A stretch of 64,000 nt of DNA from the NCBI RefSeq assembly GCF_900129905.1, contig NZ_FQXG01000008.1, positions 198,152 through 262,151 on the forward strand, in the 5' to 3' direction. The notes under the pieces are model-generated. The model saw only the letters and a program-made list of their open reading frames with translations, did no database searches and had not been told where the DNA came from. Positions 47,633-55,085 of this stretch are shown here, piece after piece (the stretch's first letter is position 1; every line of letters begins with the position of its first letter). This stretch comes from Ferrimonas marina. Its GTDB lineage: Bacteria; Pseudomonadota; Gammaproteobacteria; Enterobacterales; Shewanellaceae. Made by a program: the position numbers and the translations under genes.

Positions 47633-48793
47633 ATGCGTATAGGAATAGTCTGTCACCCAAGCATTGGTGGCTCGGGGTTGGTGGCCACCCAGTTGGCCAT
47701 GGGGCTGGCGCAGCGCGGGCACCAGGTCCACGTCATCTCCCGGGAGCGGCCCTTTAAGCTGGATCCCGCCACCCCCAACCTCATGTTCCACCCGGTGGAC
47801 CCGGTGCATTATCCGCTGTTCTCCGATCCCCTCTACACCTACACCCTCACCGCCAAGATCCTTGAGGTGATGACCGAGCATCAATTGGATGTGGTGCACG
47901 CCCACTACAGCATCCCCCACAGTCTCAGCGCCATCCTGGCCAGCGCCATCGCGCCCCGGGGGATCCCGGTGATCACCACCATCCATGGCACCGATGTCAC
48001 CGTGATTGGCCAGGATAAGGGGCTCTACGCCCTCAACCTGCACAGCATGAATCAAAGCACCCGGCTGACCACCGTCTCCCATTACCAGCGCGATTATGTG
48101 CTGGAGCATTTTCCGTTGGAGCGGCCGCTGGAGGTGATCCACAACTTCATCGATCTTGAGGTCTTTTCCCCGGCTCACGCCAGCCTGACCCTGCGACGGG
48201 AGCTGGCAGCGGACGATGAGAAGATCGTCATGCACGTCTCCAATTTCCGCCCCATCAAGAACAGTGACGCAGTGCTGTCGGCGTTCTATCAGCTGACCGC
48301 GCGGGTTAAGGCCCGGTTGGTGTTGCTCGGCACCGGGCCGGACATCGACATGATCAAGATGCGCTGTCGGGATCTGAACCTGCTGGAACAGGTGACCTTC
48401 CTCGGCGACGTCACTCATGTCGAGCAGTACCTGCCGGTGGCCGACTGCGTGATCCAGCCCAGCTACCGCGAATCCTTTGGCATGGTGCTGCTGGAGGCGA
48501 TGGCCTGCGCCGTGCCGACGGTGAGCAGCAACGTTGATGGCATCACCGAGGTGGTGGAGCACGGTGTCACCGGCTTTGTCGCCGATACCGACGATGTACA
48601 GGCCCTGGCGGCCTACATGGAGACTCTGCTCAGCTGCGATGCCACTGCCCGGGCCATGGGCCAGGCCGGCCGTGAGCGGGCGGCCAGGCTGTTCAGCCCA
48701 CAGCGGCAGTTGAGTGCCTACCTGGCCTGCTACCGGCGGGCCATCCATGCCCACCACGGCATGCAATCGGTGCCCCGGGAGCAGCAAGGATGA
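47633..48793 (+). CDS. BshA-like glycosyltransferase (GT4)
   Basis: A GT-B retaining glycosyltransferase of 386 residues that closely resembles BshA, the enzyme joining N-acetylglucosamine from UDP-GlcNAc to L-malate in bacillithiol synthesis. Shared signatures are IVCHPSIGGSG at the N-terminus, VVHAHYSIPHS, TTIHGTDVTVIG, IHNFIDLEVF, HVSNFRPIKN and ESFGMVLLEAMACAVP. Bacillithiol is not typical of Gammaproteobacteria, so another acceptor is possible. ATG 47633 fits the BshA N-terminus. It overlaps the next gene by ATGA. Confidence 0.72.
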   Translation: MRIGIVCHPSIGGSGLVATQLAMGLAQRGHQVHVISRERPFKLDPATPNLMFHPVDPVHYPLFSDPLYTYTLTAKILEVMTEHQLDVVHAHYSIPHSLSAILASAIAPRGIPVITTIHGTDVTVIGQDKGLYALNLHSMNQSTRLTTVSHYQRDYVLEHFPLERPLEVIHNFIDLEVFSPAHASLTLRRELAADDEKIVMHVSNFRPIKNSDAVLSAFYQLTARVKARLVLLGTGPDIDMIKMRCRDLNLLEQVTFLGDVTHVEQYLPVADCVIQPSYRESFGMVLLEAMACAVPTVSSNVDGITEVVEHGVTGFVADTDDVQALAAYMETLLSCDATARAMGQAGRERAARLFSPQRQLSAYLACYRRAIHAHHGMQSVPREQQG

Positions 48794-50982
48794 GTGAAAA
48801 GGCGGTGGCGGCGGACCCGCCGGCGGAGGAGAAGAAGCTCAGCATGTCGACCCTGGTGCTGATCGCCTTCGGTGCCGGGATCGTCGCAGGGCTGTTCTTC
48901 GGCGAGATGCTGGCCTGGATGTCGGTGATTGGCGATGCCTTTATCAAGCTGCTGCAGATGACCATCATCCCGTACATCATGGTGTCGCTGATCTCCAGCC
49001 TGGGCAGCCTCAGCTACGCCCAGGCCCGCAGCTTGGGGCTCAACGTTGGCAAGCTGATGCTGGTGATCTGGGTGCTGGGCATCGTGGTGATGTACCTGAT
49101 CAAGTTCACCTTTCCCGAATGGGTGGCGGGGGAGTTCTTCAGCCTGACTGCGCTGCAGGACCCGAAGAGCGTCAACCTGCTGGATCTCTACATCCCGGCC
49201 AACCCCTTCTTCTCCCTCTCCAACAGCTACATCCCCGCCATCGTATTGTTCTGCGTAGCCACCGGTCTGGCGCTGATCTCCATCGACAACAAGGAGTCGC
49301 TGATCACCCCGTTGGAGCTGCTGGGGGTGGCCTTTAACAAGGTCACCCAGTACATCGTTAACCTGATGCCGCTGGGGATCTTCGCCATGACCGCCGCCAC
49401 CGCCGGTACCATGGAGATCGACGAGTTTCAGAAGCTGCAGGTGTACTTTGCTGCCCACATCGTGATGACCATCGTTCTCACTTACTGGGTATTGCCGGCC
49501 ATCGTCGCGGTGATCACCCCCTTCTCCTACCGCGACATCAGCGGCATCGCCAAGGATGCGCTGATCACCGCCTTCGCCGCCGGCAACATCTTCATCATAT
49601 TGCCGCTGCTGATCGAGCACACCAAGGAGCTGTTTCATAAGTACAAGATCGGTGACAAGGAGACCGATGACTACGCCAATGTGATCATCCCGGTGGTGTT
49701 CAGCTTCCCCAACCTGGGTAAGCTGCTGACTATCGTTTTCGTGCTGTTCGCCGCCTGGTTCTCCGGCATGGAGATGGATTTCATCACCTACCTGCCGATG
49801 GCGATCAACGGCCTGATCAGCCTGTTTGGCAGCGTCTACCTCACCATCCCCATGCTGCTCGATTCGCTGGAGCTCTCCTCTGATCTGTTCCAGCTCTACG
49901 TGGTGTCCAGTCTGTTCACCAGCCGCTTTACCTCGCTGCTCGCGGCGATGAACCTGTTCGTGCTGGCGGTGGGGGGCACCGCGCTGTTGTCCGGCCGGGC
50001 CAAACTGAGCAAGACCAAGCTGATGTTCTACCTGGGCATGACCCCGGTGGTGATGGGCGGGATCCTGGTGGCCACGGCGCTGCTGCTTGGCAAGGTGGTG
50101 GACACCGAATACAAGATGGACCAGGTGGTGGTGCAGATGACCTCCTCAGAGGAACTGCCGGAGATCGTCACCCAGTACTCCTGGGGTGATGTCGAGGCGC
50201 TGCACGGCCCCCGCAGCATTGATGAGATCCGCGATGAGGGCATCCTGCGGGTGGGTTACAACCCGCGTCAGCTGCCGTTCTCCTACTACAACGCCAACGC
50301 CGAGCTGGTGGGCTTTGATGTGGAGCTGATGAAGCGCCTGGCCGCGGAGCTGGAGGTAAAGCTGGCCTTTATCCCCTACAAGGCGGACAACGTTCTGGAG
50401 CTGCTCAACACCGGCGAGGTGGACCTGGTGGTGTCCGGGCTGCAGATGACCACCTTCCGGCTTAAGTATGTGGGCTTCACCGATCCTGTGATGACCCTGC
50501 ACTACGCCTTTGTGGTGAAGGATTACCGCGCAGATGAGTTTGCTACCGATGAGCTGATCCGCGATGCCGGCCCCATCACCGTCGCCTCGGTGGGGGACTA
50601 CGAGATCATCCCTCAGCTGGAGCAGAAGTTTGAGAACCTCACCTTTGCCCGTATCCCCTCCGACCGGGTGTTCTTCGAGGACGATGGCGAGCAGTTCGAT
50701 GGCTTGCTCTTGAGCCTGGAGGCGGGCAAGACCTGGACCATCCTCTATCCGGAATACACCACCTTGTACAACCGCGAGGAGGTGAGGTCCTTCCCCGCCT
50801 CCTACGCCGTGGCCAAGCAGAACCTGTCATTGCAGCTGTTCCTCAACAGCTGGCTGGAGCTGCAGCGCTCCTCCGGCCACATCGATAAGCTCTACGACTA
50901 CTGGATCCTGGGCAAGAACGCCGAGCCCAAGAAGGCGCGCTGGTCGGTGATCAAGGACGTACTGCACTGGGTGGAGGAGTAG
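48790..50982 (+). CDS. Dicarboxylate/amino acid:cation symporter fused to a solute-binding domain
   Basis: A 730-residue fusion. Residues about 18-410 form a DAACS (SLC1-type) symporter with the LLQMTIIPYIMVSLISSLG segment and helical hairpins. An additional TM helix (about 412-433) then brings the chain to the periplasm. Residues about 472-720 form an SBP_bac_3 domain (ILRVGYNPRQLPFSYYNA, LVGFDVELMKRLA, VDLVVSGLQMT). Solute-binding domains usually serve ABC or TRAP systems, so a covalent link to a secondary symporter is unusual. It is coupled to the BshA-like gene. Confidence 0.85.
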   Translation: MSEKAVAADPPAEEKKLSMSTLVLIAFGAGIVAGLFFGEMLAWMSVIGDAFIKLLQMTIIPYIMVSLISSLGSLSYAQARSLGLNVGKLMLVIWVLGIVVMYLIKFTFPEWVAGEFFSLTALQDPKSVNLLDLYIPANPFFSLSNSYIPAIVLFCVATGLALISIDNKESLITPLELLGVAFNKVTQYIVNLMPLGIFAMTAATAGTMEIDEFQKLQVYFAAHIVMTIVLTYWVLPAIVAVITPFSYRDISGIAKDALITAFAAGNIFIILPLLIEHTKELFHKYKIGDKETDDYANVIIPVVFSFPNLGKLLTIVFVLFAAWFSGMEMDFITYLPMAINGLISLFGSVYLTIPMLLDSLELSSDLFQLYVVSSLFTSRFTSLLAAMNLFVLAVGGTALLSGRAKLSKTKLMFYLGMTPVVMGGILVATALLLGKVVDTEYKMDQVVVQMTSSEELPEIVTQYSWGDVEALHGPRSIDEIRDEGILRVGYNPRQLPFSYYNANAELVGFDVELMKRLAAELEVKLAFIPYKADNVLELLNTGEVDLVVSGLQMTTFRLKYVGFTDPVMTLHYAFVVKDYRADEFATDELIRDAGPITVASVGDYEIIPQLEQKFENLTFARIPSDRVFFEDDGEQFDGLLLSLEAGKTWTILYPEYTTLYNREEVRSFPASYAVAKQNLSLQLFLNSWLELQRSSGHIDKLYDYWILGKNAEPKKARWSVIKDVLHWVEE

Positions 50983-51863: not shown

Positions 51864-52316
51864 TTAGGCGAGTCGGGACTCCATCCGGCGCTGGTCAGCC
51901 CTGCGGTGGCTGACTTTCCAGCGTCGGGCAAACTCTGCTTGCTCTGTTTTGCTCTCCAGATAGGGGCAGTCCCTCTCTGGGATGCCGTCCATTCCTGCCT
52001 GCCAACCCTGGTCTGATGCCATGCGGTAGCCGATATAGAGCTCTTCGTTAAGTGGGCGTTTGGCGTGAGAGATGACGCGGCGAAACAGAGCCAGGCCCAG
52101 TAATACCGCCATCACCAATAGGGCGCAAAACAGTATCGTCATCGCGGCATTGTCCCTTCCAACATACACTGCCGCCATACCGCCCAGGGTGAAGCCGATA
52201 CTGCAGAGGCGGTCAAACTTTTTGTTGGCACCGATTTGCGAGCCCCGATAAAGGCGATCCAACCGGTGGTGCCTCTCAGCCAGCACAAAATACTTCTGTT
52301 GTTCCTCTGGTGTCAT
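51864..52316 (-). CDS. Membrane protein with C-terminal RMF-like domain (copy 1)
   Basis: A 150-residue protein. Residues 1-33 are a charged helix (MTPEEQQKYFVLAERHHRLDR), two TM helices follow (about 37-53 and 58-78), and the C-terminal part is cytoplasmic by inference. Residues 104-133 read GWQAGMDGIPERDCPY then Trp at 133. E. coli ribosome modulation factor has GYQAGIAGRSKEMCPY with identical Gly-to-Cys spacing and a Trp 15 residues past the Cys (16 here). It is a gapless paralogue of the gene at 53692. Start 52316 was set by alignment with that copy. Confidence 0.6.
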   Translation of the reverse strand: MTPEEQQKYFVLAERHHRLDRLYRGSQIGANKKFDRLCSIGFTLGGMAAVYVGRDNAAMTILFCALLVMAVLLGLALFRRVISHAKRPLNEELYIGYRMASDQGWQAGMDGIPERDCPYLESKTEQAEFARRWKVSHRRADQRRMESRLA

Positions 52317-52519
52317 TCCCTTGTCCTTGTGCGAATACGGCCAGGCCCAATTCAATGCCTGAATCACGGAGACAACTTGTATCACACTCGCTTGATTGCC
52401 CCAAGGAACCGAGTCTTTGGAGTTTTTACGCTGATGAAATCCTGCTCCAGCTCGAGAACGCCAGGGAAGCGTGACGGGGCACTTTCAGTTCACTCTGACC
52501 CGGCGTCCGCTGCCAATCT

Positions 52520-52783
52520 CTAACGATTGACCTGTGCCGCTGAGGCGTTTTGCTTGCGCAGGCGGTCAGTGACCTTGCCTGAAATAGCCCAAACCATGAC
52601 GCCACCCCAAGCGATGAACGAGAAACCCGCCGGGATACAGGCCAGAAGAATCAACCTGAAATGTTTGCGGTTAAATATCAGCGCCAGCATGGCAGGGAGA
52701 AACCACACCAATAGCATCGCCAATATCACTAATACAAAAAAGCCGCCATCCGCCTGCGCCCATACCTGACTCAATTGGTTCAT
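52520..52783 (-). CDS. Superinfection-immunity-family membrane protein
   Basis: An 87-residue protein with two TM helices (about 14-37 and 43-69). The pattern Phe-Leu-Pro-x-x-Leu-Ala-Leu-Ile-Phe, then Trp-Gly-Gly-Val-Met-Val-Trp-Ala-Ile-Ser, fits the T4 Imm-like superinfection immunity family that blocks phage DNA entry. Many chromosomal members are uncharacterised. It lies in an accessory island with an XRE regulator and RMF-like proteins. Confidence 0.55.
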   Translation of the reverse strand: MNQLSQVWAQADGGFFVLVILAMLLVWFLPAMLALIFNRKHFRLILLACIPAGFSFIAWGGVMVWAISGKVTDRLRKQNASAAQVNR

Positions 52784-52852
52784 TTTGATTCTCCTTACTG
52801 TTGGGTTAGGAGATGGGTCGGACGCTCGCTGAAAATGTCGATAAAGCTGGGC

Positions 52853-53308
52853 TCAAAGCTCGGGATCAAACCAGATCCCGTACTTATCCCCCTGCCACTT
52901 GAGCAACTCGAAAAAATAGGCATTCGAGAGCAAAACAATACCGCCAAACAGCGCCGTTTCATTGACCCATCCCAGAACAACGAAAAGAAAGCCAAACAGA
53001 TGGGAAAGCATGATGACTCGTTGTGTCGCGGCTCGATTGGGCTTGGCTGCCAGATAATTGAACGTGAACCAGGCCCTGACGAAAAAGGGCAGTTTTTTCC
53101 AGTTCTCACTGCCGCTGTCTATCGAAACCTTAGGTTGTGTCAACGTCTCCACCTCAACCTCCAACGCCGCTGCCAAACACCTCAGAGATTCGGTACTGGC
53201 TTTATGGCCACTCTCTATCCGTTGAATGGTTCGAACGCTCAACCCAGAGATCTGAGCTAACTGCTCCTGCGACAAATACCGACCAAGACGTAACTGCTTC
53301 AATACCAC
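52853..53308 (-). CDS. XRE-family regulator with membrane-spanning C-terminus
   Basis: A 151-residue protein. An N-terminal HTH_3 domain (about 5-58) contains LSQEQLAQISGLSVRTIQRIES. A linker and two hydrophobic helices (about 98-114 and 118-136) follow, so the regulator is probably membrane-tethered. GTG/ATG choice is uncertain; 53308 places the HTH at the usual distance. It is likely co-regulated with the immunity-like gene 69 bp downstream. Confidence 0.7.
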   Translation of the reverse strand: MVLKQLRLGRYLSQEQLAQISGLSVRTIQRIESGHKASTESLRCLAAALEVEVETLTQPKVSIDSGSENWKKLPFFVRAWFTFNYLAAKPNRAATQRVIMLSHLFGFLFVVLGWVNETALFGGIVLLSNAYFFELLKWQGDKYGIWFDPEL

Positions 53309-53691
53309 CGTGTGCTTCCTTTTCTGGTTCTAGACTGGCTCAATGCAAGGCCTGTCGGGCACGAATCCCACCCGACAGCACCCCGACAGTTCCCTGCCAG
53401 CAACCCGCCATGCCCAATTACCGCTGTCCTTTTTGGGTGTGCAATTCGGGCTGCTATCACTCGAGCGTACCGCAACCGCCCCGTTGAGTAACCAACCATT
53501 GAGCAGGGTGCCAGCATTGAGTCCTTTGACCAAGAGAGGGAACAAAGGGGGAGCAAAGGGGCCAGAGTGGCTTGAGCTCGATATTGACTGAATGCCTTCA
53601 AAGGGGTTGCTGCTGCTCAGTCACACAGGTAGCCTCACTGACCATTAACTGATTTTTCAATCTCTTAGGCATGCTAACAAGGTGGTAGGCA
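53309..53691. other. Intergenic spacer in the accessory island
   Basis: 383 bp with no credible gene between the XRE regulator and copy 2 of the RMF-like protein. It contains one copy of the dispersed GGGG(T/C)CA repeat at 53551-53579. The rest may hold promoters for both flanking genes. Confidence 0.4.
53551..53579 (+). repeat. Dispersed repeat, copy 1
   Basis: GCAAAGGGGCCAGAGTGG followed by CTTGAGCTC. Related copies are at 54242 and 55698; all three share CAAAGGGG(T/C)CA-(G/A)-GTGG in the same orientation. Confidence 0.55.
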
Positions 53692-54219
53692 ATGACCGAT
53701 GAACAACGCGAATACTACTTCGGCTTAGCCCGCGAAGTGAAACGCTTAGAGCGCAGGCAACATAGCTTCAGTACCCACTCCGGTGACGATGTCACTCGCT
53801 GGGGCCAGTTTGCCACCTCTTTGGGGAGCGGGATCGCAGCGCACCTGTTCAGTGGCAGCTTGCTGATTACCTTGGCCTGCATGGCAGTGACCTATATCGG
53901 CGTCGAGCTGGTGCTGTTTCTACTTAGAGCACAGGTTGAGAAGCAGGTCTCCCCACTTTATAAGCCCCTATACGAGGGCTACAGCCTGGCAGCTGACGAG
54001 GGAGAGCAAGCGAAACACGATGGATTGCCTGAATCCGCCTGCCCCTATATCGAGGATCATCCCGTGCAGGGCAAATTCGCCCGAGAATGGCTCGACAGCT
54101 ACCGCCAAACCCGAGCCACTGATGAGGAGGAGCGTGAGTACCAGGAGAGCATGGCAAGACTTCATGCAGCACTTGAGCAGCACCAGTTGGACAAGGGCAG
54201 CTCAATCGCGTTTAAGTGA
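53692..54219 (+). CDS. Membrane protein with C-terminal RMF-like domain (copy 2)
   Basis: A 175-residue paralogue of the 51864 gene. It has the same charged N-terminus (MTDEQREYYFGLAREVKRLER), a hydrophobic segment at about 38-79, then LYEGYSLAADEGEQAKHDG and ESACPY. Cys-Pro-Tyr falls at 117-119 and Trp at 133 in both copies. It has a longer Glu-rich tail (about 142-175) predicted helical. ATG follows GGTGGTAGGCA. The RMF resemblance suggests ribosome or RNA contact at the membrane, but function is unknown. Confidence 0.6.
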   Translation: MTDEQREYYFGLAREVKRLERRQHSFSTHSGDDVTRWGQFATSLGSGIAAHLFSGSLLITLACMAVTYIGVELVLFLLRAQVEKQVSPLYKPLYEGYSLAADEGEQAKHDGLPESACPYIEDHPVQGKFAREWLDSYRQTRATDEEEREYQESMARLHAALEQHQLDKGSSIAFK

Positions 54220-54276: not shown

Positions 54277-54544
54277 AATGACCTCTCCGGGGCGGCAGGA
54301 GCCACCAGGTAGCCCCTATTGTCGGTGATCCACCCACGCACGTGGCGAGCGTCTGCTCTGGCGCCAAAAGCAGTCGCTCGTTGGGACACGCGCACCTTCA
54401 CCGTATAGATTCTCTGTCTCACCCAAAGGGCAATCAGGGCCGGCATCTAAGAGATTGATTGAATGGGGAGCGCTTGGTACGTTGGAAAAACCCTAGCCGG
54501 AGTTGTTGCGCCCTCATAGGTGCCAACAGGCGCAAAGAAACACT

Positions 54545-54551
54545 GTTAGGC
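54545..54551 (+). other. Integron-type cassette boundary (R' core GTTAGGC)
   Basis: AACACT-GTTAGGC matches the core recombination site of attI/attC. GTTAGGC is the exact complement of GCCTAAC, which begins the attC at the end of the following gene, as expected for the two ends of one circularisable cassette. The crossover would fall after the first G. Confidence 0.6.
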
Positions 54552-54557
54552 ATCAAT

Positions 54558-55085
54558 GTGAAATCTTCTAAACCTCGCAAGCAATCAAGGTATATGCCCG
54601 GAATGGTCTATGCCGTTCCGTTGGCTGATGGCTCGTTCGGTATAGCTCAAGCGAACGTAAGTCAGGGGAATTTCGACAGCGTAATCTACATTGCGCTTTT
54701 CGAAGATAGATTCGATGAAGTACCCAATGAAGTTCCCGTTTTGAGCCGCGCAAAAGTGGTCTCGCTTTGCGCAACGTGGCGGCAAGGCTTAAATCGAGGA
54801 GAGTGGTTATCGATTGGTATCGAAAAGGAGTTGTTTGAGAAACATGAGTTCCCGAATGAGGAGTATGCCAGCAATGGATATATCGGAGCAGAGAACTACG
54901 ATGCTGGAATACTTACAAAATTCCTATCAGCAGTTCACGGGCTTATCCCTTGGAACGTAATGCATGATCCCAACTACTACGACGAAATACTTCTAAACGG
55001 GGCTGCTCGGCCAAACTCAGCGTACATCCTAAGCGAGCAGGAGCGAACTATCTACCGCAAAGAGATGTTCGGAATTGATGCCTAA
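54558..55085 (+). CDS. Imm26-like immunity protein in an integron cassette
   Basis: A 175-residue protein whose N-terminal part (GMVYAVPLADGSFGIAQAN) fits the Imm26 family of polymorphic-toxin immunity proteins; the match is moderate. It fills a cassette: its GTG start is 12 bp inside the R' boundary and its stop TAA is inside the R'' box GCCTAAC. ATG at 54556 is out of frame (ATGTGA). Codon use is more AT-rich than neighbours, consistent with acquisition. No toxin is adjacent. Confidence 0.5.
   Translation: MKSSKPRKQSRYMPGMVYAVPLADGSFGIAQANVSQGNFDSVIYIALFEDRFDEVPNEVPVLSRAKVVSLCATWRQGLNRGEWLSIGIEKELFEKHEFPNEEYASNGYIGAENYDAGILTKFLSAVHGLIPWNVMHDPNYYDEILLNGAARPNSAYILSEQERTIYRKEMFGIDA

Follow-up and report, generated by a model that had tools for sequence, protein, structure and literature searches.

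A small family of predicted membrane proteins in Ferrimonas carrying an RMF-like C-terminal domain

Ribosome modulation factor (RMF) is a small protein under whose action bacterial ribosomes become dormant. A locus of Ferrimonas marina raises the question of what an RMF-like domain would do at the end of a membrane protein. Within the window, that is, the whole 64,000-nucleotide stretch analysed here from a 4.98 Mb genome, the sequence-only reading had described two gapless, collinear paralogues joining membrane helices to such a domain. Both ORFs are indeed intact: copy 1 (51864..52316, minus strand) encodes a membrane protein of 150 aa with a C-terminal RMF-fold domain, and copy 2 (53692..54219, plus strand) a diverged paralogue of 175 aa with a longer acidic tail. 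BLASTP aligns them over 148 residues with 49 identities (33%) and no gaps (E 6e-25), and every shared residue listed in that reading (Y9 F10, R18 L19, G96 Y97, D110 G111, C117 P118 Y119 and W133) is present in both copies. The start codon of copy 1 is likely ATG 52316, since the remaining family members start at the same residue, the member from genome G004 doing so with GTG; a longer form starting at GTG 52385 has no such backing.

The domain comprises residues 91–141, placed in copy 1 (51894..52046, minus) by profile and fold matches and in copy 2 (53962..54114, plus) by profile and alignment, that is, from sequence. Its descent from a common ancestor with RMF is well supported by sequence comparisons, as is its RMF fold by structural models. 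The Pfam RMF model (PF04957, cut-off 27.9 bits) matches the window proteins on their own only weakly, at 13.9 and 12.6 bits, which would suit a chance resemblance built on a short GxxAxxxG...CPY motif with no common descent. However, in a scan of the genus a copy from G003 (contig C3), an orthologue of copy 1, reaches 29.3 bits and thus exceeds the cut-off, four other members score 26.2, 26.1, 26.0 and 20.7 bits and copy 1 scores 16.2, copy 2 being absent at E up to 0.1. At the family level, each of the seven has a PF04957 match at E up to 1, the lowest value being 1.6e-6, and the NCBIfam Rmf/CrpP models also match all seven (best 5.1e-7), with copy 2 reaching 24.7 bits against Rmf_CrpP_fam (E 1.3e-5, cut-off 28). 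The best three matches among PDB profiles are RMF (1.1e-4 to 2.7e-4). Conversely, a profile of the family C-terminus assigns 24.7–34.0 bits to all 36 distinct RMFs in a control set, whereas a profile of the N-terminal half gives them 1.2 at most. These RMFs were drawn from 41 loci by a start-motif filter through which atypical RMFs fell out, and the set is biased because nearly all of it was originally retrieved with the family profile. The proper comparison is with shuffled and reversed RMFs, of which 756 were built; among the 749 that received a score, the maximum was 8.9 bits. Likewise, hhalign aligns the family C-terminal profile with RMF at 97.0% (E 9.5e-11), compared with 0.2% for the reversed control.

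The predicted structure agrees with the profiles. The model of the isolated copy 1 domain gave three Foldseek matches at E up to 10, all of them RMF, and superposes on ribosome-bound RMF in 4V8G at 1.2 A over 52 residues, in a VIA-align comparison that covered 9 chains only and is thus no search; one of the five isolated-domain models was poor (pLDDT 71.3). With the full-chain model of copy 1, Foldseek gave 89 matches, none at E 0.001 (best 0.77). The Cys-Pro and Trp of the motif singled out earlier are invariant in all seven members, and its Tyr is replaced by Phe in two. Thus, the earlier proposal of an RMF-like domain on a membrane anchor holds, in family profiles, in their controls and in the predicted fold alike, and we regard chance resemblance as extremely improbable; the failure of shuffled and reversed RMFs to match the family profile rules against it.

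The earlier claim of two transmembrane helices stands for the second and is less sure for the first, most of all in copy 2, owing to the weak hydropathy of that helix. A strong hydrophobic peak lies inside residues 57–79 in all seven members (1.88 to 2.83, 19-residue Kyte–Doolittle window), corresponding to residues 60–78 of copy 1 (52083..52139, minus; peak 2.83) and 57–75 of copy 2 (53860..53916, plus; peak 2.21). In the copy 1 model it belongs to a helix of residues 57–109 that runs unbroken into RMF helix 1. The first helix (about 36–58) has 17-residue peaks of only 1.05 to 2.19 across the members. In copy 1 it is placed at residues 37–53 (52158..52208, minus; peak 1.58) and modelled as a helix of residues 32–51, in a block with pLDDT 68–69, and in copy 2 the peak is 1.05. 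Two of the five full-chain models of copy 1 were poor (pLDDT 62.7 and 61.2).

Among 14 Ferrimonas genomes, profile searches detect the family in five, with seven members in all: two in the F. marina window, two in G003 and one each in G006, G013 and G004, the last being divergent. Thirteen alignment columns are invariant, including G104, A107, G111, C117, P118 and W133. A scan of named genomes recovered three loci in two strains, namely, Ferrimonas balearica DP5N7-6 (two loci) and a record labelled Marinobacter nauticus DP3N21-5; the latter record appears to belong to Ferrimonas, and its label may be wrong. Outside the genus, the family profile was run against overlapping sets of 369 genomes of the class, 394 of the order and 398 of the phylum, with at most 9 or 10 candidates scored per genome; the matches listed, which in one of the lists extended to E 0.0041, included no full-length member. 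Most of them were canonical RMF or small proteins resembling it, and the others were TM-only or unrelated. In tblastn searches, copy 1 (P0001) had no match in plasmids and copy 2 (P0002) none in phages; the divergent G004 member had none in plasmids and a domain-like stretch in three phage records (E 0.02 to 0.07), one of which, on inspection, was a 162-base gene. Among viral contigs, 118 pattern matches included no relatives. A seven-row tree resolved nothing, with none of its four inner branches supported, and dN was lower than dS in all 21 member pairs, to which we give little weight because dS is often near saturation.

Two genes lie between the copies, exactly as previously described: a superinfection-immunity-like gene (52520-52783, minus; PF14373, E 8.5e-11) and an XRE-type regulator (52853-53308, minus). 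By eye, the C-terminal half of the regulator resembles two membrane helices. The arrangement had been taken to hint at a stress or anti-phage defence cassette, and both genes do share a strand with copy 1, from which 203 bases separate the immunity-like gene, with a further 69 bases between that gene and the XRE gene. However, comparison did not support this suggestion: no window neighbour was found within about 8 kb of the five other copies (blastp 1e-6, ORFs of at least 70 aa). Moreover, PADLOC matches are limited to residues 2–66, the HTH part, of the XRE protein, and the plasmid and phage searches for copies 1 and 2, respectively, were empty. A defence cassette is thus highly unlikely. The surroundings of G004 and G006 have in common a gene pair that is 77% identical, at distances of about 0.4 and 3.8 kb from the respective copies; those of G004 and G013 share a distant regulator pair (27%). 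Relatives of a carbonic anhydrase (63-66%) were found only in G010 and G011, and no further window gene is shared around them. Elsewhere in the window, a weak Imm26-like protein (54459-55085; E 0.05, below the cut-off) lies beside the paralogues, and a 730-aa protein (48790-50982) fuses a Sodium:dicarboxylate symporter (SDF) with an extracellular solute-binding domain (SBP_bac_3).

Which functional residues of RMF the domain retains can be judged against mutants of the E. coli protein, which is strongly basic (55 aa, pI 11.3). According to the available text of PMC8126665, G16A, C29A, W40A or W44A suppresses ribosome binding, and R3A, K5A, R11A, G23A, P30A, G43A and R45A mutants still bind and form no or few dimers; in its Discussion, unlike its Results, the binding of R3A, K5A and R11A is termed weak. 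Furthermore, removal of the first five N-terminal residues abolishes both binding and dimerisation, R3 and K5 contact helix 28 of 16S rRNA, R45 contacts the anti-Shine–Dalgarno sequence, and G16, C29 and W40 are regarded as structural (same source). Equivalents of G16, G23, C29, P30 and W40 are invariant in the family and that of R45 is kept in five of the seven members. At the W44 position, all seven have H, Y, L or F, so that three of the four binding-essential positions are retained throughout. K5 and R11 are lost in every member, and the R3 position is occupied by D or E in six and by K in copy 2, these three positions being located by an ungapped count back from G16 along one predicted helix. 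Copy 1 keeps A12 (= A100), G16, G23, C29, P30, W40 and R45 and is without R3, K5, R11, G43 and W44; it does not have the full set invariant in 50 RMFs (PMC8126665; M1 left aside). Compared with RMF, the family has a 5-residue insertion between CPY and W, and its net charge from residue 91 onward is −8 to +2, versus +3 to +8 in the 36 RMFs, although residues 131–150 carry +1 to +6 in six of the seven members (−3 in copy 2). Nor are the window copies small and strongly basic, the hallmark of RMF, being 150–175 aa long with a membrane helix. As G16, C29 and W40 are treated as structural in PMC8126665, their conservation may mean only that the fold is kept.

RMF-like domains are also found on other membrane proteins. 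The Pfam RMF model gave 38 matches in 36 of 369 class genomes at E up to 0.01. We re-read 17 of these, mainly long frames (plus one match from the genus scan; the long frames left out include those of G150, G395, G400 and G155), finding a hydrophobic stretch (peak at least 1.5) in 11, which fall into three kinds, and none in six; ten proteins were scanned in full. Of these three non-Ferrimonas kinds, only one passes the Pfam cut-off (31.6 versus 27.9 bits), namely, an RND transporter of the AcrB family that bears an RMF domain at its C-terminus (L114:4200-5933, from G247:C300), adjoined by a gene for what appears by eye to be an outer-membrane efflux protein. Proteins with an N-terminal RMF-like domain, a TM helix and a C-terminal DUF2914 occur in three genomes of the same class but different families (L115:893-1663, L116:1189-2091 and L117:1546-2364; RMF E 4.1e-5, 2.7e-3 and 9.8e-3, respectively). 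Six short proteins of 123–150 aa (L118–L123; one further near-copy was left out of the scan) combine an RMF-like domain, in which NPY or NPF replaces CPY, with a C-terminal hydrophobic stretch that is weak in G216; their RMF E values are 7.1e-5 to 0.012, and in two of the six no NCBIfam RMF model is matched at E 0.1. In hhalign, the domain of each group aligns with RMF at 92–97% (DUF2914 group 95.5%, short group 92.6%; reversed controls 0.1%), whereas against the Ferrimonas domain the short group reaches 42–60% and the DUF2914 group 15%; given this poor direct alignment, the link among the groups runs through RMF. If simple topology rules hold, all these domains would be cytoplasmic. Collectively, the Ferrimonas hairpin, the C-terminal hydrophobic tail, the TM helix with DUF2914 and the RND-type transporter C-terminus could be scaffolds to which the RMF fold was independently joined as a recurrent gammaproteobacterial module, bringing ribosomal subunits at rest to particular places on the membrane; we consider this broad proposal rather unlikely to hold as a whole.

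Canonical hibernation factors are present throughout the genus. The Pfam model detects canonical RMF in all 14 genomes, in 13 of which the family profile also retrieves its gene at E up to 0.01, and in F. marina rmf resides on a different contig (C6) from the copies (C15). HPF/RaiA homologues number at least two in each of the 14 genomes, with exactly two S30AE homologues in each of the other 13; the genome of the window has a third, weak one that is over the cut-off (G000:C10:72638-72895; 25.8 bits). A sister genome contains, in addition, a small RMF/CrpP-like ORF with a 49-aa frame (L112, G007:C32:7176-7301; 38.3 bits). By contrast with the E. coli control, which was positive, the YqjD-type tether (PF05957) was found in none of the 14 genomes, and neither window copy matches it at E up to 10.

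Sequestration of ribosomes or RNA at the membrane, as first suggested for the two copies, is plausible. Our best explanation, held tentatively at a little short of even chances, is that the family tethers 30S or 70S ribosomes to the membrane without dimerising them. A small family of inner-membrane proteins would have arisen when an RMF-like domain acquired a membrane hairpin at its N-terminus. The domain would hang into the cytoplasm and dock, like RMF, on the 30S subunit close to the 16S rRNA 3' end; in starvation, idle 30S or 70S ribosomes would be held at the membrane, or mRNA kept off them. No driving of 70S dimerisation would be expected, as R3, K5 and R11 are gone while three of the four binding-essential residues of RMF are retained. 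In this view, the family would serve as a counterpart of E. coli YqjD in which RMF forms the head, although copy 2, being more acidic, could by now bind a different ligand. That RMF-like domains recur on other membrane scaffolds supports the tether. Against it speak the apparent loss of the basic N-terminal residues, two of which are 16S rRNA contacts in RMF, and the binding defect of RMF without its first five residues, as well as the replacement of W44, the lowered net charge, the insertion before W and the patchy occurrence in the genus. Moreover, since R3 and K5 of the RMF N-terminus touch helix 28, helices fused at this point may clash with the 30S subunit.

The same losses lend themselves to another explanation, possible though doubtful, which ranks close behind the tether: the fold may have been reused as a membrane adaptor binding proteins or ligands with no ribosome contact, as perhaps in the wider RMF/CrpP family. 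The shifted charge, the best score of copy 2 coming from a generic Rmf_CrpP model, the phage stretches resembling the domain of the G004 member and the presence of RMF-like domains on scaffolds not known to be connected with ribosomes, the RND-type transporter among them, would all fit such an adaptor; retention of three of the four binding-essential residues, of the R45 contact (PMC8126665, in its available part) in most members and of a positive end of the domain outside copy 2 would not. Alternatively, the domain could control hibernation indirectly in the manner of RaiA, competing with or titrating soluble RMF or HPF on 30S subunits near the membrane and so blocking dimerisation. The ubiquity of soluble RMF and HPF/RaiA homologues in the genus and the loss of dimerisation residues alongside retention of fold-critical ones agree with this, but canonical rmf lies on another contig and the family is present in so few genomes that we consider indirect control improbable.

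If the tether reading is correct, a membrane-anchored RMF would link RMF with the membrane tethering of resting ribosomes and would naturally separate ribosome binding from dimerisation. No membrane-anchored RMF was found in our search of the literature, in which, as far as the available texts go, RMF is a small basic factor and the tethers YqjD, ElaB and YgaM belong to another family (PMC8126665, PMC8778775, PMC10746276). The recurrent module, if true, would represent a branch of hibernation biology absent from the accessible portions of that literature, and recurrence on unrelated membrane proteins would open to direct test the reason why resting ribosomes go to the membrane. Overall, the RMF-like fold predicted for the inward-facing end of these proteins suggests that in some bacteria resting ribosomes, or something akin to them, may be kept at the membrane.

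Among known systems, that of PMC13324472 likewise joins a hibernation-factor domain to another module, but, in the part available, the hibernation domain, the partner and the domain of life are all different. Small proteins of the Rmf/CrpP fold (NF041886, NF041887, NF041856 and NF033696) belong to the same fold family, NF041886 being the best-scoring model for copy 2; their models, however, are 39–58 positions long, whereas here the domain forms the C-terminal end of a longer, membrane-bound protein. RMF itself (PF04957) shares with the modelled copy 1 domain a two-helix fold with a CPY loop, and differs in that the family has membrane helices ahead of a domain that is not basic overall, five additional residues before W40, no R3, K5, R11 or W44, and a separate canonical rmf gene alongside it. 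The closest functional analogy would be with YqjD and its paralogues ElaB and YgaM (DUF883, PF05957), by which ribosomes are fixed to the membrane in stationary-phase E. coli (available text of PMC8778775 and PMC10746276) and which so have the job proposed here. Hydropathy and the model predict a membrane anchor in the Ferrimonas family as well, placed ahead of the putative ribosome-binding part, whereas YqjD carries its TM helix at the C-terminus and binds ribosomes through its N-terminal part (PMC8778775, as far as available).
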